Of a DNA stretch of 39,361 bases, positions 3,334 through 24,936 are shown in pieces. The stretch's first letter is position 1. Every line of letters begins with the position of its first letter. The position numbers were made by a program, and so were the translations under genes. The notes beneath the pieces are model-generated. The model ran no database searches and was not told the origin of the DNA. It saw only the letters and a program-made list of their open reading frames with translations. The stretch spans positions 1 through 39,361 of the forward strand of contig JAGXNS010000013.1 in NCBI GenBank assembly GCA_019894855.1, in the 5' to 3' direction. Source of the stretch: Promethearchaeota archaeon. GTDB lineage: Archaea > Asgardarchaeota > Lokiarchaeia > Sigyniarchaeales > SOKP01.

Positions 3334-4719
3334 TTAAAATTTAGAGATGATTTTTGATAGTTCCGATATCATTTTTTCTGATTTGTTTTTATTATCTGAC
3401 TCAGCAGAAAGTAATATCGCATTTCTATTAAGAGCAGCTTTAATATTTACGTATACATCATCATCAATTATTTTTAATTCATTGATTATATCTTGATACT
3501 TTAAGTTATGTTCATCTGCAAACTCTATTAATCTGTTGTGTATTGATTGCAATACTTCTGATGAAACTGGTATTGTTTTGTTGACTTTTATACCCTTGGG
3601 AAACCCTTTTGTAAGAGAACTTATTAAGTCCTTTTGAAGTGCCATTATTTCTAAAATTTTGAGTAAAATATAGTTACCATCGCTTATAGGAGCATATTGA
3701 GGAAAATAAAATTTCAAGGAATCGGCAGCAGCAAAACAAGCTCTTTCTTGTCTTATTTGACGCGAAAGCTCTCCAGGATAATTTTCTACAAGTTTTAGTG
3801 GATGTCCACTCTCCTTTATAAAATCTTTAACAACGCGAGAGATAGAAGGTGTTGTAATTATCGTGCTACTTTTAGCCTTTTGTATTCCTTTATCATAAGC
3901 GACGAAGAGCATCAACATATCTTCGAAACTAATTTCTAAGCCATTTTCATCAACTACCAATAAGCGTGATCCATCAACATCGAAACATACTCCTAAATGA
4001 CTATTTGATGCTTTTACGATATCCGCAGTATTCTTAATGGTATTTATGCTTGGAACAGGAACTAGTGATCTCTCACGATAATGAGTATTTAGCGCAATTA
4101 CTTCAATCCCTACTTCATTGATTAAGAGTGGAGTTATTTTGCCGGTTGGACTGAACGAGCAATCTACTACTATTTTTAAATTAGCTTCTTTAATAAGTTT
4201 TTTGCTGACAAATTGCTCTAGCGATTTTATATACACATCTTGAGTCTGAGGGATTGCAATGATACGTCCAATCCTCCTAGGATCAACGCGTCTAATTTGA
4301 GAGGGGTAGGTATTGTATGATTCAATGATTTTTTTTATTTCTAGAGGTGCTAATTCTATCCCTCCAGCATCTGCAAATCGCACTCCTACATCTTCACTAT
4401 AGAGATGACCTCCTGAAAAATAAGCTCCTCCACTTGCTCCAAATCGCCTTATGGTAAATTCTAATAATGGAAATGTACATTCTGTTAGATTTAATACATT
4501 TACTCCAGTACTCATTACTCCCGCAGTATAAGCTCTCTTTAACATCCGGCTATCGTTATGATAATCTCGTCCAATAACAATTGTCTCGTCTTTCTTAAAA
4601 GAACTCCCATGAATAGAACCAATAGAACTCGCTATCTCGGGTGTAAATATATAATTAGCCCTTCCTACAATTCGACCATTTTTATTAAGTTCATCTAACT
4701 TTTGTACGCGTGAAGTCAT
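3334..4719 (-). CDS. Phosphohexomutase (PMM/PGM)-like protein lacking catalytic residues
   Basis: The 461-residue protein has the length and domain order of alpha-D-phosphohexomutases. The strongest blocks are VIGRDYHNDSRML (48-60), the region after GASGGAYFSGGH and the DVDGSR loop (247-252). The catalytic positions are lost. The phosphoserine loop TASHNP reads SGGHLY (102-107), with Gly at the serine position. The metal loop DGD reads DGS (249-251). The sugar-binding GExSGH and phosphate-binding RxSGTEP loops are not recognisable. This pattern matches the degenerate mutase-like domain that some bacterial nucleotidyltransferases carry at their C-terminus, after a beta-helix domain. A nucleotidyltransferase with a beta-helix tail lies 3.6 kb away, so this may be a stand-alone partner or regulatory subunit. 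ATG start; it is divergent from the GH13 gene. Confidence 0.8.
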   Translation of the reverse strand: MTSRVQKLDELNKNGRIVGRANYIFTPEIASSIGSIHGSSFKKDETIVIGRDYHNDSRMLKRAYTAGVMSTGVNVLNLTECTFPLLEFTIRRFGASGGAYFSGGHLYSEDVGVRFADAGGIELAPLEIKKIIESYNTYPSQIRRVDPRRIGRIIAIPQTQDVYIKSLEQFVSKKLIKEANLKIVVDCSFSPTGKITPLLINEVGIEVIALNTHYRERSLVPVPSINTIKNTADIVKASNSHLGVCFDVDGSRLLVVDENGLEISFEDMLMLFVAYDKGIQKAKSSTIITTPSISRVVKDFIKESGHPLKLVENYPGELSRQIRQERACFAAADSLKFYFPQYAPISDGNYILLKILEIMALQKDLISSLTKGFPKGIKVNKTIPVSSEVLQSIHNRLIEFADEHNLKYQDIINELKIIDDDVYVNIKAALNRNAILLSAESDNKNKSEKMISELSKIISKF

Positions 4720-4748
4720 TTTAACCTTTCAAATTTTGAATAATATAA

Positions 4749-4776
4749 TTAGTATAATATTAATATTATTAGTATA
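4749..4776. promoter_or_regulatory. Palindrome and repeat in the divergent promoter region
   Basis: A perfect 16-base palindrome (ATAATATTAATATTAT, 4754-4769) is flanked by two direct copies of TTAGTATA starting at 4749 and 4769, 20 bases apart. It lies between the divergent mutase-like and GH13 genes, about 35 bases from the first and 100 from the second. It could be an operator overlapping TATA elements. Low base complexity makes chance palindromes fairly likely here. Confidence 0.3.
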
Positions 4777-4867
4777 GCTTGTTTTAAAATAATAATAACT
4801 TTCGTTTAAAAATACATTAGTTAATAAAAATTAGGGCACATTTAATAAAATATTAAAGTAATAAGAT

Positions 4868-7800
4868 GTGATTCCCATGAAAATATCGAGAGATGCTAGG
4901 AACAAGTACGAATTTACTGAGTTTAAATTTTCAGAAAAGGGTAATATTGAATTTAACGGAAATATCCATTTAGTTAGGAAGTTCGTTCAAAAATTAAATC
5001 AAAAAAGAGATTTAATTAATTTTCCGGAACTTGCTATTCGAATTGGTGAATTCAATGGAATGGCGTTAATGTACGAAATTAATAAATTCTTGTTCAATTT
5101 GTACAAAGAAGAAACCCAGAATTCACGGTTAAATAATGAACTTTATGAATTTTTAGAAGATAAAATTGGTAGTTCTAAATTAGAAGAGGCAATTTACTCC
5201 TTGATAGAGGAATTTCCTCCAGATATTGTATACCAAGAGGAAGAAAAAATTGAAGTGTTCTTAAAAGATGAAGTAGGGGGAGTTGAAAACGAAATCCATT
5301 TTGTTGATGAATTTGTAAATCTCTGGCTCGGAAATATGAATCCATCCTATTCTCCTTTTATTGAGCTATTTGACGATGAATCGCTTGAAAAACAGACGGC
5401 GTATAGGGATATCATTAATGAGATCTCTAATTTTTTTGAAGAAAAAGCTAAATTTGGCCCCAATAATCAGAATTTAATTGAAATGTTGAAAGAACCTGTA
5501 GAAAAATATCCACATTCAATTCGAGAACAATTGATGTACATTCATGACAACTGGGGACCGGTATTAGGAAAGTATACATTCCAAATCTTAATTGCTCTTG
5601 ATATTATAAGGGAAGAAGAAATGTTAAGGGGATTAGGTCCTGGAGAGTCAGAAGCTTATGAATATGATTCTATGGAAATAGAAAATTATACTATAGACAA
5701 AGAATGGATGCCAAAGGTAATCATGATCGCTAAAAACATTTATGTATGGATGGACCAGCTTTCAAAAAAGTACAATAGAACAATTACAAAATTACATGAT
5801 ATCCCCAATGAAGAATTAAATCAACTGAAAGAATGGGGTTTTACCGGTCTTTGGCTCATTGGATTATGGGAAAGAAGTCAAGCGTCCAAAACAATTAAAC
5901 GATGGTGTGGTAATCCCGAAGCAGAAGCAAGTGCTTATTCAACTTACGATTATGTTATAGCGCATGATTTAGGAGGTCACGATTCTTATGACAATTTAAA
6001 AAATAGGGCAATCGAGAGAGGAATTCGTCTCGCTTGTGATGTGGTACCTAATCACACTGGAATTGTTTCAAAATGGGTATTAGAACACCCTGATTGGTAT
6101 ATCTCTCTGCCGTACTCTCCGTTTCCATCTTATAATTTTTCAGGTGAGAATTTATCTGGAGATCCAAACATAGGTATCTATCTGGAAGATAAATATTTTA
6201 CTAGAACTGATGCTGCAGTTACATTTAAGTACGAAAATTTTCGTACTGGTGAAATCAAGTATGTTTATCATGGAAATGACGGTACTAGTTTTCCATGGAA
6301 TGATACAGCTCAATTGGATTTTTTAAATCCAGAAGTTCGAGAAGCAGTTATTCAGAGTATTTTGCACATTTCTAAAATGTTTCCTATTATTCGGTTTGAT
6401 GCTGCCATGACCCTCACGAGAAAACATTACCAAAGATTATGGTTTCCAGAACCTGGAACTGGAGGTGCTATCCCTTCAAGAGCGGAGCATGGAATCTCCA
6501 AAGATGAGTTTTATAAAGCGATGCCATCAGAGTTTTGGCGAGAAGTTGTTGACAGGATCAATAAGGAAAATCCTGATACGTTATTATTGGCGGAGGCATT
6601 TTGGTTGCTTGAAGGATTTTTTGTGAGAACATTAGGGATGCATCGAGTGTATAATTCTGCTTTCATGAATATGCTTAGAGACGAGGATAACGCCATGTAT
6701 CGTTTAGTATTAAAAAATACACTCCAATTCGATCCAGAAATACTTAAAAGATTTGTAAATTTTATGAATAATCCAGATGAAGAAACCGCTATAAAGCAAT
6801 TTGGTGATGGAGATAAATACTTTGGTGTTTGCGTAATGTTGGTAACCATGCCAGGGCTTCCAATGTTTGGCCATGGGCAAATCGAGGGATATCACGAAAA
6901 GTATGGTATGGAATACAGACGGGCTTACTGGGATGAAGAAATCAATTTAGGTTTACTTGAGCATCATAAGGAGATTTTATTTCCAATAATGAAGAAACGC
7001 TATCTTTATGCTAATGCTAATAATTTTTTACTGTATGACTTTTGGACCGGCAATGTAGTCAACGAAGATGTATTTGCCTATTCTAACCGAGTTAATAATG
7101 AGCGCGCATTAATAATTTTTCATAATAAGTACGCTGAGGTAAATGGTTTTATCAAAAACTCAGTTGGATTTGCACAAAAAGTTGACGATAATAAAAATAT
7201 AATCCAGAGGACCTTAGCAGAGGGTTTAAAATTACCCATAGAAGGATATTGTATCTTTAAAGATCATCTTACAGGATTGGAATACATAAGGCGAAATAAG
7301 GAACTCCATGATGATGGTTTATATATAGAACTACATGCATATCAAAAGTTCTTGTTTATGGACTTTCAAATTATCTCCGATAATGAGTTTTTCCATTATG
7401 CCCAGCTCCATGATCTTTTAAATGGTAAGGGGGTCCCTAACATACATGAAACCCTACACGAACTTGTATATCAGCCTTTGCATGAATCTTTTAAGCTTTT
7501 ACTCAATACAAACTCATTAAAAGATCTATTAAATCTAAAAAAAGTAAAAAAAGAAACAGAATTGATTTTCAATAATCTTGATGCATTTTTACTTGAAGTA
7601 AAAAAGTATTCAACAAGTCAAAAGGATTATACGGACATTAAGAATGATATCGTGTTGAGAATTGAAGTTTTACTAAAATTAAAACATAACAATAGAGAAC
7701 TGAGAACTCTAGAGGAATATAATGACATTTTTATTAACTTACTTCCACTATCTGAAGTTGATTGGGGTATTTTATTTTCATATCTTATTGTTCACCAATT

Positions 7801-14709: not shown

Positions 14710-15747
14710 TTGTTATCAAAAATATTTTTGTTAAAGCGCAAAAATCACCTTGATTTAGACAGTCTTGATATTTATAGCTATCCCGAAGACATACACAAAA
14801 AGGATAATAAAGAAATATTGTTACAAATCATCCAAGGACACGATCAAGGTTCCTTAGAAGATAACTGTTGCGAAATTCTCAAATCAGAAAGTAAAGCAAA
14901 TTCTACGCAAGATTCATCTAATCCGTTTGTAATTGGTAATCCAGTTTCTCAATTGATTGGGAACCAAAACCTCTATACTATATGCATTAATGCTGAAATG
15001 CTTATCGGATTAGTATTTGAGAAAGAAGATAATCCTTACGATTATCGAGAAATTTTTGTTGATATGTCTAACGAATTGTTAAATACTGAAAGAAGCTGCT
15101 CTTTTAAAGACGATATCGAAATAGAAAACTTCTTAATAACCTTGTTTATTGATATAAAAAGATATGGGGATGAAACTCTTGAAAAAGCTCATGAAGTTTC
15201 CTTTCATCCCTCGGGATTGTTTACAAAGGTTTTTCTTTTTGGAATAGACGAAGTTGGAAAAAGTTCCTTTACTAGGAGAATTAAAACAGGTAAGTTTAAC
15301 GACAACTTTTTTACACCGAGCAGAAGATTTAACATTGAGTATATCCAGAGACAAGATGGGCTTCTCTCAATATGGGATAGCCCAGGGCAAAGCACCTTCA
15401 GGGAAAAGTGGTTGTTAGGTCTTCAAGATTCAAACATAATTATTTATATAATCGATGTAGCTAACCAATTACGTTTTGACGAATCAAAAACTGAGTTTTG
15501 GAAAATATATAACGAAAATGATCTAAAGGATACTCCCCTTTTAATCCTTGGGAATAAGATTGATCTAATTAATCATAACGATAACAATAATGATGATCAA
15601 TTAAAAAGAACGGAAAAAGAAATCATAGACTTCTTTGAATTTGATAGTTTACAGCATAACAATTGGAAATTTGTTTTTACATCTGTTAAAACTAGCCATA
15701 ATATTGAAAAAGTATTAAACACGATTTTTACCATGGTCTCAGCTTAG
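14710..15747 (+). CDS. Ras-superfamily small GTPase with a possible N-terminal longin-like domain
   Basis: The C-terminal half (about 172-345) is a small GTPase. G1 is GIDEVGKSS (178-186). T202 fits the switch I threonine. G3 is WDSPGQ (222-227), close to eukaryotic WDTAGQ. G4 is GNKID (281-285), and a TSVKT segment fits G5. The C-terminus has no prenylation cysteine. The roughly 170 N-terminal residues are unusual. NLYTICINAEMLIGLVFEKE and the helix PYDYREIFVDMSNELL look like the sheet and helix of a longin or roadblock-type domain, but this is by eye. GTPases switch between GTP and GDP forms to recruit effectors. The start is TTG 14710, weakly supported by AGGA about 8 bases upstream. The V4R gene follows after 125 bases, suggesting linked function. 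Confidence 0.85.
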   Translation: MLSKIFLLKRKNHLDLDSLDIYSYPEDIHKKDNKEILLQIIQGHDQGSLEDNCCEILKSESKANSTQDSSNPFVIGNPVSQLIGNQNLYTICINAEMLIGLVFEKEDNPYDYREIFVDMSNELLNTERSCSFKDDIEIENFLITLFIDIKRYGDETLEKAHEVSFHPSGLFTKVFLFGIDEVGKSSFTRRIKTGKFNDNFFTPSRRFNIEYIQRQDGLLSIWDSPGQSTFREKWLLGLQDSNIIIYIIDVANQLRFDESKTEFWKIYNENDLKDTPLLILGNKIDLINHNDNNNDDQLKRTEKEIIDFFEFDSLQHNNWKFVFTSVKTSHNIEKVLNTIFTMVSA

Positions 15748-15872
15748 AAAATCTATACAAATTTTGATTTATCAATAAATTTATAAGCCTAGCCGATTAA
15801 ATTTCTATTATATTAAATTTGTTTAATGATATTACTCGTTGAGAGATATAACAATTATAAAAGGATTGAATT

Positions 15873-16469
15873 ATGTTTAAACGTCTCAAAAAAGAATTGC
15901 AAATAAATGTTGAGGAAAAAGAAGGACAACTATTTTTAGGCGAAAAAGATAAAGATATGAGGCTTGTAATGCTCCGTCCGAATGAGATAATGGAATTTTG
16001 CGAATTTGCTGGAACAAACGCTGATGATATCCTAATATGGGTGGGGAAATCTCTGGGCAAAATATTTTTGGAGAAGTTTTTTTCTAACAAAGATTGGAGT
16101 GATGATCCTATGGAGACTAAAAAGGAAGTTGTCTTGGGAACTCTCGAGGCTTTAACACTTATGGGATACGGGGGGCTCAAAGGGATGTTTAAAAAAGACC
16201 ATATTATCATAAATGTGTACGATTCTTTAGCAAGTCAAGAAATAGGTAATATTTTGGCTAAGAACTTGTGTTTATTATATCTTGGAATTTTTAACAGTAT
16301 ATTTGATATACTTGGGATTGATGTTGATGGAAGTGAAGAAGAGTGCGTTTTAACAGGAGATGAGAAATGTTCATACAAATTTGATCTCCTCTCAGGAGAA
16401 ATTGATGATGCATTAATAGACGAACAGCTTTCTGACGCCGTTGTATCTGATTTCTTAGCTTCACTTTAA
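15873..16469 (+). CDS. V4R (4-vinyl reductase / Bet3-like) domain protein
   Basis: The 198-residue protein is essentially a single V4R domain. It has LVMLRPNEIMEFCEFAG (31-47), a helix with GKSLGKIFLEKFF, a strand IIINVYDS, the helical pair around NLCLLYLGIFNSIFDILG, and the C-terminal signature C158-VLTGDEKC166-SYKF170. V4R domains bind hydrophobic ligands or act as sensors. They have been proposed as the prokaryotic ancestor of the eukaryotic TRAPP subunit Bet3, part of a GTPase exchange factor. There is no enzyme domain attached. AGGA lies about 9 bases before the ATG at 15873. It follows a small GTPase gene with a possible longin-like domain and precedes cdhA on the same strand. Ligand is unknown; family membership is fairly sure. 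Confidence 0.82.
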   Translation: MFKRLKKELQINVEEKEGQLFLGEKDKDMRLVMLRPNEIMEFCEFAGTNADDILIWVGKSLGKIFLEKFFSNKDWSDDPMETKKEVVLGTLEALTLMGYGGLKGMFKKDHIIINVYDSLASQEIGNILAKNLCLLYLGIFNSIFDILGIDVDGSEEECVLTGDEKCSYKFDLLSGEIDDALIDEQLSDAVVSDFLASL

Positions 16470-20062: not shown

Positions 20063-21271
20063 TTAAAGAAATAAATTAATCAAAGGTAGCAGTTGTTGTT
20101 TAAAGTAATCGATTTTCTCCTTCAGTAGATCGAAATTTTCACTAAGGATCCATAAATATACAGGTATTTTTAGCTCAGAATATTCAAAAAGTTTTTCTCC
20201 TCGAATAGCAAATCTATTTAAGGGAAAATCAAGAGTGATAGAAGGTTCTCTAGTTAATCCTATCGAGCTATGAAAGTTCGAAAGCGTTTGCATAATTAAT
20301 GCTGTATTATTTAGTAAAGCCTCATCAACATCCGAGCTCGTGAAGCTTCCAAAGATTAAACCGTCCATTGAAATTAAGGTCGAAGCCTTACCTTCAATAG
20401 TATTAGTAAAATCCTCTAAGATGTTCTCAATTATTTCTGAAGTTTCAGAAACTAATTTTAAAGCTTCGCTGAACATTTGCATAATGGTTTCTTTTTGATA
20501 AATAGTCGTATCAGAATAACTGATTAATATATTTTCATATTCGCCTACTATGTTATTGAATTTATTCTTTATAGCAGATACATTATTTTGCCATTCGAGA
20601 GATGTACGAATATCTTTATCGCTTTTTGAGAGAACTACATGGATTGGAGGGAATTCATTTAATTCTACCAATGCTTTTAAAACTTGACGGAAGTAATTTG
20701 CAGTTTCAGCAAATCTATCATTATCTTGTGTATCAATAACGTAAAGTACCAAATCGGCTTCAGTAAAGAATAATTCAGGTCTATTAAAATAAAGTTTTTC
20801 TCGATATTGGACCTGACCGCCTAAATCCCACGAAAGTATTGGATATCCAAAAAAGTCCAGTTTTTCGCGTTTAACGCCCCTTGTGGGAAGAAGAGACTTA
20901 ATAATTGAAAATTTATCTTGAAGAACTGCTAAAATGCTACTTTTCCCCCCATTATCCAATCCTATCATTAAAATTTTCTTATGCGTTTTAGTTTTCTCTC
21001 TGATTGCTTTTTCAAGTACTTGTGCGATTTTTACCCATTTGTGAAGGATTTTAGGAGGAATTTCTTCAATAGTTGGAAGACTCTCGATCGATAATTTCGC
21101 TAGATCATCAATATTTTTTATATTATTTTCTACTAATTTGTCTGAGGAAATTTGATCAATTCCTATTAATGAATCTGGTTTGAATTTTAACGCTTCATCT
21201 AATTCGTTGATTATTACAGACCTTTTAAAAAAGTCTTTAATTACAACGCTTTTTGTCTCCTCTTCAGACAT
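20063..21271 (-). CDS. Arf-like GTPase fused to N-terminal helix-hairpin-helix and C-terminal roadblock/longin-like domains
   Basis: The central part (about 97-275) is an Arf/SAR-type GTPase. G1 is GLDNGGKSS (104-112), matching Arf GLDNAGKTT. T130 fits switch I. G3 is WDLGGQ (148-153), and VLYVIDTQDNDRF follows. G4 is SKSD (215-218) in place of NKxD. Residues about 33-90 (DSLIGIDQISSDKLVENNIKNIDDLAKL) resemble the helix-hairpin-helix N-terminus of RadA-like proteins. The C-terminus (about 280-402) contains LISMDGLIFGSFTSSD and PLNRFAIRGEKL, consistent with a roadblock or longin-type domain. So one polypeptide seems to join a helical module, an Arf-type switch and a profilin-like module. The usual Arf N-terminal myristoylation glycine is absent. 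It is divergent from the VWA zinc-finger gene. ATG start at 21271. Function unknown; GTPase fold very sure. Confidence 0.85.
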   Translation of the reverse strand: MSEEETKSVVIKDFFKRSVIINELDEALKFKPDSLIGIDQISSDKLVENNIKNIDDLAKLSIESLPTIEEIPPKILHKWVKIAQVLEKAIREKTKTHKKILMIGLDNGGKSSILAVLQDKFSIIKSLLPTRGVKREKLDFFGYPILSWDLGGQVQYREKLYFNRPELFFTEADLVLYVIDTQDNDRFAETANYFRQVLKALVELNEFPPIHVVLSKSDKDIRTSLEWQNNVSAIKNKFNNIVGEYENILISYSDTTIYQKETIMQMFSEALKLVSETSEIIENILEDFTNTIEGKASTLISMDGLIFGSFTSSDVDEALLNNTALIMQTLSNFHSSIGLTREPSITLDFPLNRFAIRGEKLFEYSELKIPVYLWILSENFDLLKEKIDYFKQQLLPLINLFL

Positions 21272-21379
21272 AATACATCGGATTTAAAATCAATTTTACT
21301 TTAATTTATAGTGTAACTTAATTTTATAGTAAAATATCTAATTAATAAAATTTTAGTTTTGTGTAAAAACATAATTATT

Positions 21380-21407
21380 TATTTAAAAATTAGTATTTAA
21401 AAATTAG
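21380..21407. repeat. Two tandem copies of a 14-base repeat in a divergent promoter region
   Basis: TATTTAAAAATTAG occurs twice head to tail (21380-21393 and 21394-21407) between the divergent Arf-like and VWA zinc-finger genes. Each copy contains a TATA-like element, so this may be a duplicated promoter or regulator site. Confidence 0.45.
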
Positions 21408-21468
21408 TAAATAAATACGGGCTTATGTAGAAGCTTAATTCATACATATCGAAAAAAAACACGTTAAA

Positions 21469-22662
21469 ATGTCAGAACGGCACCCGGAAAACATAGTTGT
21501 TTGCATCGATACTTCAAGATCAATGTATCGAACAGATTATGCCCCAAACCGATTAGTATGTAGTATAGATGCTTTGAAAAAATTAATTAGTGAGAGAATT
21601 GCTCAAGATTCCTCAAGCGCGTTTGCAATTGTAAATTTTTCGAATAAACCAAAAAAAATAATTGATTTTACAAACGAAAAAAATAAACTTTTTGAAGTAT
21701 TAGATGATTTAGAAGTTTCTGGAAAATCTGCTTTGGGAGAAGCCTTAGGTCTTTCTATTAAATTAATCATTTCTGAATTACGAAAGATTTCCGCTAAAAT
21801 ACCTCGAATCCTTGTTATTTCGGATGGCAATATTACTACGACCTCTATTGATCCATTGAAAATGGCACGTTTAGCTCAAGGATTAAACGTAAAAATAGAT
21901 ACTTTTCGATTGGGTGAACTCTCTCCGCTCAATATCTTAAAAAGGATGAGCGACCTCACAGGGGGAATCTATTATTACAATAATGACGCTCAATCTTTAC
22001 TACAAGCAGCTCATGACTTAGCAGGATCTAATATTAAAACTTATGGCGATGGGACAACATCAATTATTGAAAATCCCGCTTTTCTTAGAAAAATAGCAGC
22101 AGATCTTTTAAGAGTCCAAGATCTGACAAAAGATCAAGAACAACGGTTATTACAGATAAGAGGCTTGGTAGATTATAAAAAGTGTTCGATCTGCTTTTCA
22201 GATTTAAATCCCTATACCAAAAGTTCCTTTTATGTTAGCGGTCGTTATTGCCCTAATTGTCAAGCACCATATCACATTCATTGTTTATCAGCTTGGGCTA
22301 ATTCCCAAAAAGACAGAATAATGAAACAAGCGGGAACAGTTCGATGCCCCCATTGCTTCTATTTATTAAAAATTCCAACTGAAGTGTCTCAAGTCCAAAA
22401 GCTCACATCTCTTGTCAAACCAAGAATAAAATCTAAAAAAGAGCCCAAACCACCCGAACTTTCTCATGTAGATTTAATCAAATTTAGCGATTTAGAATCG
22501 GATGATGTGTTTAGCTCGTGCCCGGTGTGTAATTTTATATTTGAAGAAGGGCAAAATATCTTAAGGTGCAATAATTGTAAAACCCTCTACCATGAGCACT
22601 GTTTTAAAGATTTAATCGATAGTCGCTGTAAAAACTGTGGAGTAAAATTGCATCAATTTTAA
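21469..22662 (+). CDS. VWA-domain protein with two C4HC3 zinc fingers (p44/Ssl1-like architecture)
   Basis: The 397-residue protein starts with a von Willebrand A domain (about 7-186). Its metal site DxSxS reads DTSRS (14-18), with S86/S87 in GKSALG and D119 in ISDG. The stretch D23-YAPNRL-29 matches the corresponding position in TFIIH p44/Ssl1 (DLKPNRL) and, less well, Rpn10 (DFLPTRL). A helical linker precedes finger 1 (C239, C242, C261, C264, H269, C272, C293, C296) and finger 2 (C351, C354, C367, C370, H375, C378, C387, C390), each C4HC3 like RING-CH or PHD fingers. p44 also has VWA then two zinc modules. Function could be in transcription/repair, a ubiquitin-type system or scaffolding. 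ATG start at 21469, divergent from the Arf-like gene. Confidence 0.85.
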   Translation: MSERHPENIVVCIDTSRSMYRTDYAPNRLVCSIDALKKLISERIAQDSSSAFAIVNFSNKPKKIIDFTNEKNKLFEVLDDLEVSGKSALGEALGLSIKLIISELRKISAKIPRILVISDGNITTTSIDPLKMARLAQGLNVKIDTFRLGELSPLNILKRMSDLTGGIYYYNNDAQSLLQAAHDLAGSNIKTYGDGTTSIIENPAFLRKIAADLLRVQDLTKDQEQRLLQIRGLVDYKKCSICFSDLNPYTKSSFYVSGRYCPNCQAPYHIHCLSAWANSQKDRIMKQAGTVRCPHCFYLLKIPTEVSQVQKLTSLVKPRIKSKKEPKPPELSHVDLIKFSDLESDDVFSSCPVCNFIFEEGQNILRCNNCKTLYHEHCFKDLIDSRCKNCGVKLHQF

Positions 22663-22760: not shown

Positions 22761-23642
22761 ATGAATGAGGACTATTATTTATATGGCAATGTTAAGTTAG
22801 GATATGGAAATTTTAGAATAAATCCAATTTTAATTGGCACGATGTTCTATCAAGGTCAAACATTGGTGGATAGAAAAAATGACCTCCAATTTGATGAATC
22901 TAAAGCAAGAAAAAGAATTGATGCTCAAAAGAGTCTAGCTTCTCAATATAAACTCTCAGATTTAATCGAAATCTCTGCTACAACACCTAAAGCAATGGTG
23001 AAATATTTAGATTTTTATTTGGACTATTATAGCCCTCCGTTCGTTTTAGGTGGTAGTTTTGATGCAAGAATTGCTGGAATTGAACATTTAAACGAACGAG
23101 GGATAAAACCGGAAGATTATATTTATAATTCCATATCAAATCTCAAAAATACAAAAGAAATTGAGTTAATCCAAAAATATCGAATAAAATCTGCCGTAGT
23201 TTTAATACTTGGTCCTACTAACATGCGATCGAGTCAGAGATACGCTTATATTACAGAGAATAACCAACCAGGAGATGTTAATATAATAGATGGATTAAAA
23301 AAAATTGGGGTTGAAAAGATATGGATTGATGGAGGAGTAATTGATATTGAAAGTTTCTCACACATCCTTGAAACTCAACAAATTATCAGTAGCGCTCTAA
23401 AACTTCCCGTAGGTACAGCACCAACTCTTTTTCTCTTTCTTCTTTCAACGCCAAGATTAAACAAAAAATTTCACACAAAGGCTCGAAAAGCGAGTGTAAT
23501 GTTTATTACTTCCTGGTATTCTAATTTTATTTTTTATGGAGCAATTGAAGACGCAAGAGAATGCTTTGCGTCTGTCTATCAAGCCACTGAGCTTAAAAAA
23601 GTAATGAAAAAAGAGAATATACGACTCTTTGACAATTTGTAG
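22761..23642 (+). CDS. MtrH-like methyltransferase (tetrahydromethanopterin S-methyltransferase subunit H family)
   Basis: MtrH moves the methyl group of methyl-tetrahydromethanopterin (or tetrahydrofolate) to a corrinoid protein. This 293-residue TIM-barrel protein follows the family: an early segment INPILIGTMFYQGQTLVD, ISATTPKAMVKYLDFYLDY, then ARIAGIEHLNERG, DYIYNSI and AVVLILGPTNMR. The C-terminal part has LPVGTAPTLF and a TSWYSNFIFYGAIEDAREC segment. No mtrA-G genes and no corrinoid protein are in the window, so it is probably one of the stand-alone MtrH-like methyltransferases used for methylated compounds or C1 transfer rather than part of the membrane Mtr complex. ATG start at 22761; the preceding gene is 98 bases upstream. 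A hairpin with T-run follows the stop. Confidence 0.85.
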   Translation: MNEDYYLYGNVKLGYGNFRINPILIGTMFYQGQTLVDRKNDLQFDESKARKRIDAQKSLASQYKLSDLIEISATTPKAMVKYLDFYLDYYSPPFVLGGSFDARIAGIEHLNERGIKPEDYIYNSISNLKNTKEIELIQKYRIKSAVVLILGPTNMRSSQRYAYITENNQPGDVNIIDGLKKIGVEKIWIDGGVIDIESFSHILETQQIISSALKLPVGTAPTLFLFLLSTPRLNKKFHTKARKASVMFITSWYSNFIFYGAIEDARECFASVYQATELKKVMKKENIRLFDNL

Positions 23643-23790: not shown

Positions 23791-24936
23791 ATGTATAACA
23801 ACGACGAAAATGAAGAAAAGGAAGCTGAAGCGATCATGTTAATTGACTCTGCTGAAAATTTAGCTGACAAAGGGCGGGGAGATGAATCAATTGAAGAATA
23901 CGAGAAAGCAGCTCAGATTTACCTTGATTTTGGAAGTTATCTTAAGTTAGATGAAATCTATATTAGAATAACTCAAATTATATCACAGTTTAAAAGCAAC
24001 ATTCAAGCAACTTATCGCTTAAAATCAATTATTCGAAAAACTGAAGAATTAAAGCTATATGAGATATCGGCAAAATTATTAATTCAGCTAGGTAATATTT
24101 CGTTTCGAATGAAAGACTGGGAAACAGCTGGTGAAAGTTGGAATACTGCATCAAATTATTTACATGAATCAGATCCAGAAGAATATTCTAGTTTGGCTTC
24201 AATTCTTCTTTTAGAGGCTGGGCAGTCGTTTGAAAGATCTCATATTACAAAAGATAAAGGAAAGCGGTTAATATTAAAAGCTGTAATGAAAATCAATAAA
24301 TTTGACGATCTCTATCAAGAAGAAGAAAAACGAGCTCGAACCTTAATAATAAATAAGGAATTTGAAGCTGCGGCCGATAAGTTATATACCATTTCTACTT
24401 ATTTTAAAAAATCGTTAGCCAACCTCGACGAATTGCTACAAAATGCTGAATCTAAAGATACTACGCTTAACACTAAAGCAAGGTTCATCCATTTTGTTGC
24501 TGAATACCAAACGGTTTCAGCAATCTGCTTAATTGCCACAAAAAAGGCTGATTCTAAGGAAAGAGTAGAAAAACTTGGGAACGATTCAATTAAACTTTTT
24601 AAAGAGTCAATTTTACTACTCAAGGATTATCTGTTTAAAATTAAAAAAGATTTTGACAGAGAAATCATACTAAGGGTCACATTTGATACGATGTTGCTCG
24701 CTATTATTCAAAGGATATTAGGAAGCAAGGAAATAAAATGTAGAGATTATTTATTGAATGGAATTGAAGCAAATAAAGCTCTAACAAAAACGCTTAAAAA
24801 AAGTCCTTACTATAAAATTGTTGAAAAAATAGAAATTGCAGGATTGAAAGATGCTTTAAACGACCTACTATTGGTTAATTTAGGACATTTTGAAAAAATT
24901 AAGAACGTGTTGATTTCGAACTTCCAGCAGAATTAA
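23791..24936 (+). CDS. SNAP/TPR-like helical repeat protein
   Basis: The 381-residue protein is all helical, with TPR-like units. One is DSAENLADKGRGDESIEEYEKAAQIYLDFGSYLKL (about 18-52). Later pairs fit the same pattern (AKLLIQLGNISFRMKDWETAGESWNTAS; EFEAAADKLYTISTYFKKSL). The order of helices and the Ala/Gly spacing are reminiscent of alpha/gamma-SNAP, which in eukaryotes links SNARE complexes to NSF. Other TPR families look similar, so SNAP homology is tentative. No NSF-like AAA protein or SNARE is in the window. No signal peptide or membrane segment, so a cytoplasmic adaptor is likely. ATG start at 23791, preceded by TTAGGGA about 8 bases upstream. It is convergent with a winged-helix regulator gene (38 bases). 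Confidence 0.7.
   Translation: MYNNDENEEKEAEAIMLIDSAENLADKGRGDESIEEYEKAAQIYLDFGSYLKLDEIYIRITQIISQFKSNIQATYRLKSIIRKTEELKLYEISAKLLIQLGNISFRMKDWETAGESWNTASNYLHESDPEEYSSLASILLLEAGQSFERSHITKDKGKRLILKAVMKINKFDDLYQEEEKRARTLIINKEFEAAADKLYTISTYFKKSLANLDELLQNAESKDTTLNTKARFIHFVAEYQTVSAICLIATKKADSKERVEKLGNDSIKLFKESILLLKDYLFKIKKDFDREIILRVTFDTMLLAIIQRILGSKEIKCRDYLLNGIEANKALTKTLKKSPYYKIVEKIEIAGLKDALNDLLLVNLGHFEKIKNVLISNFQQN

Follow-up and report, generated by a model that had tools for sequence, protein, structure and literature searches.

The TFIIH subunit p44/Ssl1 consists, in this order, of a VWA domain, a zinc module and a last RING; in its sequence the middle finger has four cysteines only (C-x2-C-x8-C-x2-C) and the last one is C4C4. 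Other proteins with a similar VWA domain differ in this respect: the proteasomal Rpn10 (S5a) is without RING fingers, and fingers are lacking in the bacterial BatA and BatB, which carry annotations as membrane or aerotolerance proteins and have DUF4381 and another VWA gene next to them. Among RING proteins, Nse1, which works with Nse3 in SMC5/6, has a C4HC3 finger (zf-RING-like, PF08746) and no VWA, and RING-H2 E3 ligases such as Arkadia and RNF12 are C3H2C3. The plant RGLG copine/VWA-RING ligases presumably have a domain pairing similar to that of the archaeal protein described here. In archaea, the caldiarchaeal ubiquitin operon includes a small RING protein, srfp, that is a proven E3; E1, E2, ubiquitin and an Rpn11-type protease are encoded in the same genome (PMC5654768). 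We analyzed a protein from Lokiarchaeia, P0001, which bears RING-like fingers in a similar genetic setting, but which is a 397-aa VWA fusion encoded elsewhere in the genome.

The window, by which we mean the whole analyzed stretch of 39,361 nucleotides, comes from a Lokiarchaeia MAG that totals 2.5 Mb, is split into 170 contigs and is about 84% complete. The features that we refer to below are the following:

20063..21271, minus strand: Rag-like GTPase, 402 aa, divergent neighbor (Pfam Gtr1_RagA, 72 bits, cut-off 22)
21272..21468, no strand: intergenic region, 197 bp, A+T-rich, common to the divergent pair (sequence)
21469..22662, plus strand: VWA plus double-finger protein P0001 (family A), 397 aa (ORF, conservation in 50 homologs, AlphaFold2 model)
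21490..21999, plus strand: VWA domain, residues 8-177 (Pfam VWA_2/VWA/Ssl1; Foldseek match to the p44 VWA)
21508..21522, plus strand: start of the MIDAS, D14-T-S16-R-S18, with D119 (50-homolog conservation)
21535..21555, plus strand: D-x-x-P-N-R-L stretch, residues 23-29 (50-homolog conservation)
22183..22356, plus strand: finger 1, residues 239-296, C4HC3, Nse1-like RING (ligand conservation, hhalign to Nse1)
22519..22638, plus strand: finger 2, residues 351-390, C4HC3, RING-H2-like (ligand conservation, Arkadia profile match, hhalign)
22761..23642, plus strand: MtrH-like methyltransferase (Pfam MtrH, 106 bits), recurrent downstream in the family of the window itself
23791..24936, plus strand: TPR-type helical protein, 381 aa (weak TPR matches), recurrent near family A

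The initial annotation of this DNA had read positions 21469-22662 as a VWA protein with two C4HC3 fingers, and the open reading frame (plus strand, ATG start, 397 aa, with a stop-rich opposite strand), the Pfam matches and the alignment of 50 homologs all confirm it. A linker separates the VWA domain from the fingers. In the Pfam scan, VWA_2 (61 bits, residues 9-120) and VWA (48 bits, residues 8-177) were matched, Ssl1 (PF04056) passed its cut-off (36.6 bits against 27), and zf-RING_2, Prok-RING_1, C1, zf-RING-like and PHD fell slightly under cut-off over the fingers. The MIDAS appears intact as judged from the homologs, with D14 kept in 50/50, S16 in 46/50, S18 in 48/50 and D119 in 48/50. The AlphaFold2 model has a pLDDT of 87.5 and a pTM of 0.71.

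The two fingers share one spacing, C-x2-C-xn-C-x2-C-x4-H-x2-C-xn-C-x2-C, with ligands C239, C242, C261, C264, H269, C272, C293 and C296 in finger 1, and C351, C354, C367, C370, H375, C378, C387 and C390 in finger 2. Fourteen of these 16 ligands are identical in all 50 homologs (all eight of finger 1), and finger 2 ranges from 47 to 50 of 50, the two variable positions being C351 (49/50) and C378 (47/50). The homologs go down to 23% identity, and such near-invariance is therefore far beyond chance. Finger 1 reads C-S-I-C ... C-P-N-C-x4-H-x2-C-L-S-A-W ... R-C-P-H-C. When aligned by pattern with c-Cbl, its C-x-I-C, C-[LA]-x-x-W and R-C-P-x-C occupy the positions of C-K-I-C, C-L-T-S-W and C-P-F-C (the letters compared for p44, Nse1 and c-Cbl are those of the PDB sequences). 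The I, W and P of c-Cbl at these positions are established contacts to E2 enzymes; in the archaeal family these E2-contact-type residues are I241 (49/50), W276 (49/50) and P294 (42/50). Position 297, directly behind C296 of finger 1, is F, Y or L in the homologs in place of the usual basic linchpin (Arg/Lys), which is frequent in active RINGs, though not found in all, and typical of the most active ones.

With hhalign, finger 1 reached 97% against the Nse1 RING and 3.7% against the C-terminal region of p44. It shares with Nse1 the C4HC3 order, C-x-I-C, C-x2-C-x4-H-x2-C and R-C-P-H-C. Finger 2 reached 96% against the Arkadia RING-H2, and the two fingers 91.5% against each other; the profile match of finger 2 among PDB sequences is also the Arkadia RING (1.9e-6). 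RING-H2 ligases thus resemble finger 2 by sequence, and the finger region by fold, but differ in being C3H2C3 and in the VWA domain attached in the Loki protein. In the AlphaFold2 model each finger has a strand-strand-helix topology. A Foldseek search with the finger region alone placed the RING E3s RNF12, Ark2C and RNF13 first, then p44, Slx1 and Nse1, with probability about 1 but weak E-values of 0.013 or worse. The fingers can accordingly be described as RING/PHD-type, as had been proposed; judged by topology and matches, their zinc ions may be cross-braced. C4HC3 fingers devoid of ligase activity are nevertheless numerous, with histone tails, lipids or protein partners as what they bind.

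The proposed resemblance to p44/Ssl1 held for the overall architecture and failed for the fingers. A whole-chain Foldseek search against the PDB returned p44/Ssl1 at ranks 1-18 (about 400 columns, E from 1e-17 to 1e-13), followed by Rpn10 (7e-12) and BatB (2e-11); the p44-like order of domains and the Ssl1 match over cut-off likewise support the resemblance. The p44 VWA alone superposes on that of P0001 with an rmsd of 2.0 A and a TM of 0.86, and the full chains with an rmsd of 22-26 A, so that the domains are alike and their relative placement is different. The two proteins have in common the succession of VWA, zinc module and last RING, the VWA fold, the D-x-x-P-N-R-L stretch and the spacing of the last finger, where finger 2 can be aligned with the p44 RING ligand for ligand, ligand 5 being His rather than Cys. 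However, both fingers of P0001 are C4HC3, in contrast to the C4 (middle) and C4C4 (last) fingers of p44. The Loki protein also differs from p44 in its E2-contact-type residues, its intact-looking MIDAS, its missing link to XPD and an identity of about 15%. P0001 has the layout and the VWA fold of p44 without the finger part of its definition, and we advise against classing it as an ortholog of p44.

Other marks of p44 were less specific than they had appeared. The D-x-x-P-N-R-L stretch is well conserved in the homologs (D23 in 49/50, P26 in 48/50, R28 in 49/50), but we rejected it as a p44 signature because bacterial BatB (3ibs) carries D-V-Q-P-S-R-L; the corresponding stretch in Rpn10 is D-[FY]-x-P-[TS]-R-[LF]. 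A resemblance of TT-x-DP to the XPD-binding loop of p44, seen by eye, was dropped, since a comparable loop, G-V-L-E-P, exists in bacterial BatA. XPD-type helicases, suggested earlier as partners to look for, are indeed encoded in 52/58 genomes, but they occur also in Asgard genomes without the VWA-finger protein, and no XPD gene was seen near a VWA-finger gene in the 58 genomes; we therefore rejected XPD linkage as support for a p44 role.

The ancestry of the VWA domain was equally two-sided. Searched against PDB sequences, the P0001 VWA profile matched Rpn10 best (79 bits), then p44 (62), the BatA-like 4rck (59) and BatB (47), in agreement with the likeness to Rpn10 already noted, although the Loki protein has no recognized UIM (none was reported in the Pfam scan). 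The profile-profile comparison called for by the initial annotation did match Rpn10 and p44, yet at matched sequence number BatA scored highest (137, versus 109 for Rpn10 and 86 for p44), which makes the Bat VWA at least as similar. In a small tree of 35 VWA sequences, with eukaryotic sequences from the PDB alignments only, Loki, p44 and Rpn10 were separated from Bat at 94/93, but long branches meet there and the AU test did not reject a grouping of Loki with Bat (p 0.27). The Loki VWA may therefore share its descent with p44 and Rpn10, as the initial annotation suggested, or with Bat.

The genome of the window also encodes a ubiquitin system: contig 148 carries a cluster of two ubiquitin-like genes with E1, E2 and JAB, and contig 138 a second E1/E2 pair. 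The two ubiquitin-like proteins (L144:2502-2828 and 4687-5070, minus strand) end in ...AGN and ...AG, not in Gly-Gly, and no small RING gene is among the ORFs listed for the contig 148 cluster. E2 is present in 56/58 relatives. The earlier suggestion of a ubiquitin-like pathway gains from this co-occurrence and from the fit of the fingers, which would suit a ubiquitin-type role better than the p44 reading; it loses from the presence of E2 also in Asgard genomes without the VWA-finger protein. In one relative (G054, L139:7359-14368) the VWA-finger gene lies beside a ubiquitin-type cluster that encodes E1, E2, a JAB protein whose coiled tail is long, another ThiF protein, and an RWD/E2-like protein with a Cys/His-rich C-terminal region. 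Of about 110 genes, this one alone showed such an adjacency, roughly the number to be expected by chance (about 0.6 cases by a rough estimate that assumes about 3 E2 loci in each 3.5-Mb genome and windows of 6 kb). It is not kept in G053, the nearest relative of G054, where an E2/JAB pair is on another contig. We consequently downgraded this adjacency as main proof. A third-type VWA-finger gene in G026 (L141:9712-10824, plus strand) lies about 4 kb from E1/E2 with unrelated genes between, and was not used.

The VWA plus double-finger architecture is near-universal in the Lokiarchaeia that we searched and was found nowhere else among the sampled Asgard genomes. A family match was obtained in 53/58 genomes of relatives, and 38 loci were obtained from genome contigs, all labeled as Lokiarchaeia or Lokiarchaeota. 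At the thresholds used, full-length matches to profile A1 were confined to Lokiarchaeia among the Asgard genomes sampled; in the other classes, VWA and finger matches occurred in separate stretches, never combined. Pfam Ssl1 exceeded its cut-off in 68/197 Asgard genomes, all Lokiarchaeia, and in 0/14 control genomes, E. coli giving a match under cut-off only. The family is composed of at least two ancient paralogs, A and B, which separate in trees at 100/99, with the f7 members on the family A side when midpoint-rooted; the genome of the window has its own family B paralog on contig 108 (32% identity to P0001).

Several related proteins were seen outside these two groups. Modules like finger 2 recur across Asgard genomes as an accessory domain. 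On contig 33 of the same genome (L003:1489-2598, minus strand), for instance, a C-terminal C4HC3 finger with 39% identity to P0001 residues 347-392 follows an unrelated N-terminal domain. VWA relatives of about 610-620 aa are found in G054 (L097:160-1983, minus strand) and G053 (L099:1219-3075, plus strand). The C terminus of the former matches PCI (Pfam 5e-5, over cut-off), which is found in subunits of the proteasome lid, COP9 and eIF3; a similar longer VWA fusion in G052 (L098) is without a PCI match. Lastly, divergent proteins of 440-490 aa, often encoded as tandem pairs (L142:2663-4102, minus strand, and like genes), match profile A1 over residues 30-330; a Pfam scan of one member gave no match.

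The strongest signal in the genomic neighborhood of family A comes from a GTPase. Forty-two family A loci have flanks long enough to judge, and in 40 of them the Rag-like GTPase gene lies next door in divergent orientation, across three families and down to about 40% identity. The gap between the two genes is 111-660 bp in these 40 loci, and in the window we presume it to be a two-way promoter. Both exceptions are f2 loci with a TPR gene nearby, and in one of them the GTPase as well. The TPR-type gene recurs near family A even in distant families. Farther upstream of the P0001 gene, the window encodes an Arf-like GTPase with a long N-terminal extension, which lies beside a weakly matched V4R-domain protein (14710-16469, plus strand); the two genes stay adjacent in many relatives. 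Lokiarchaeota are known to have proteins of the Rag, roadblock and V4R types (PMC10933270). The family B and f4/f7 members examined have the same fingers and no Rag neighbor; the flanks of family B hold metG and a peptidase-like gene, a context that we discarded as uninformative.

From the combination of a p44 layout with fingers of the ubiquitin-ligase type and a Rag-like GTPase neighbor, we conclude that P0001 probably serves in ubiquitin ligation or docking and not as a DNA-repair subunit. More specifically, we favor, tentatively and a shade short of an even chance, a RING-type ubiquitin E3 ligase or E3-type adaptor, with a VWA domain that recruits a partner, plausibly of the Rag pathway. 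Finger 1, as an Nse1-like C4HC3 RING, would bind the E2~ubiquitin of the cell's own E1/E2/JAB system through I241, W276 and P294. The RING-H2-like finger 2 might stabilize the ligase or pair it with a partner, as the last RING of p44 does with the p34 VWA. The VWA domain, with its intact-looking MIDAS, would hold the substrate or partner, which for family A would most plausibly be the divergent Rag-like GTPase or something in its pathway. Against a ligase speak the missing linchpin of finger 1, the family B genes without a Rag neighbor and the weak Foldseek E-values of the fingers. The main rival, which we consider unlikely, also starts from the GTPase: P0001 would be a non-enzymatic scaffold or regulator of it (an effector, GEF/GAP helper or membrane tether) with no ubiquitin role. 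The conserved divergent pair and the recurrence of TPR, Arf-like and V4R genes nearby agree with this, as does the fact that VWA domains and treble-clef fingers, here with C1-type and PHD matches, are common protein-binding modules; but the conserved I, W and P of finger 1 are left unexplained, and fingers of the same kind exist in family B and f4/f7 members without the Rag neighbor.

Two further explanations set the p44 resemblance or the DNA-linked relatives of the fingers at the center. P0001 could be a forerunner or sister of p44/Ssl1 and Rpn10, sharing a direct common ancestor with them, and its paralogs A and B might pair as p44 and p34 do. The leading Foldseek ranks of p44/Ssl1, ahead of Rpn10 and BatB, the restriction of over-threshold Ssl1 matches to Lokiarchaeia, the register of finger 2 with the p44 RING and the VWA tree all argue for such descent. 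We nevertheless regard it as improbable, given that profile comparison brings BatA at least as near, that the AU test does not reject Loki with Bat, that the tree joins long branches, that finger 1 is unlike the p44 middle finger, that XPD is unlinked and that the architecture is absent from the other Asgard classes sampled. Least probable of all, and in our view very unlikely, is a nucleic-acid- or chromatin-linked factor in transcription or repair, with the C4HC3 fingers serving as PHD-like readers or DNA-binding adaptors. The PHD and Slx1 matches of the fingers fit this, and p44 and Nse1 both belong to DNA-repair complexes, but no repair or transcription gene is found among the conserved neighbors of family A.

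In the open-access literature, we found no paper that treats Asgard archaea together with Ssl1 or with VWA, and for Asgard archaea and TFIIH only one on an XPB-like family. Lokiarchaeia are related to the archaea from which eukaryotes arose. On a broader scenario, which we think has only a small chance of being correct, they would keep living forerunners of p44/p34 and Rpn10 in the form of VWA-RING ligases tied to Rag-type signaling, the ligase function having been lost on the way to TFIIH. The preferred reading of P0001 as a ligase or E3-type adaptor bears on the pre-eukaryotic origin of the VWA subunits of TFIIH and the proteasome and of large RING E3 ligases, and may link, in an archaeon, ubiquitin and Rag signaling, both of which are deemed eukaryotic.
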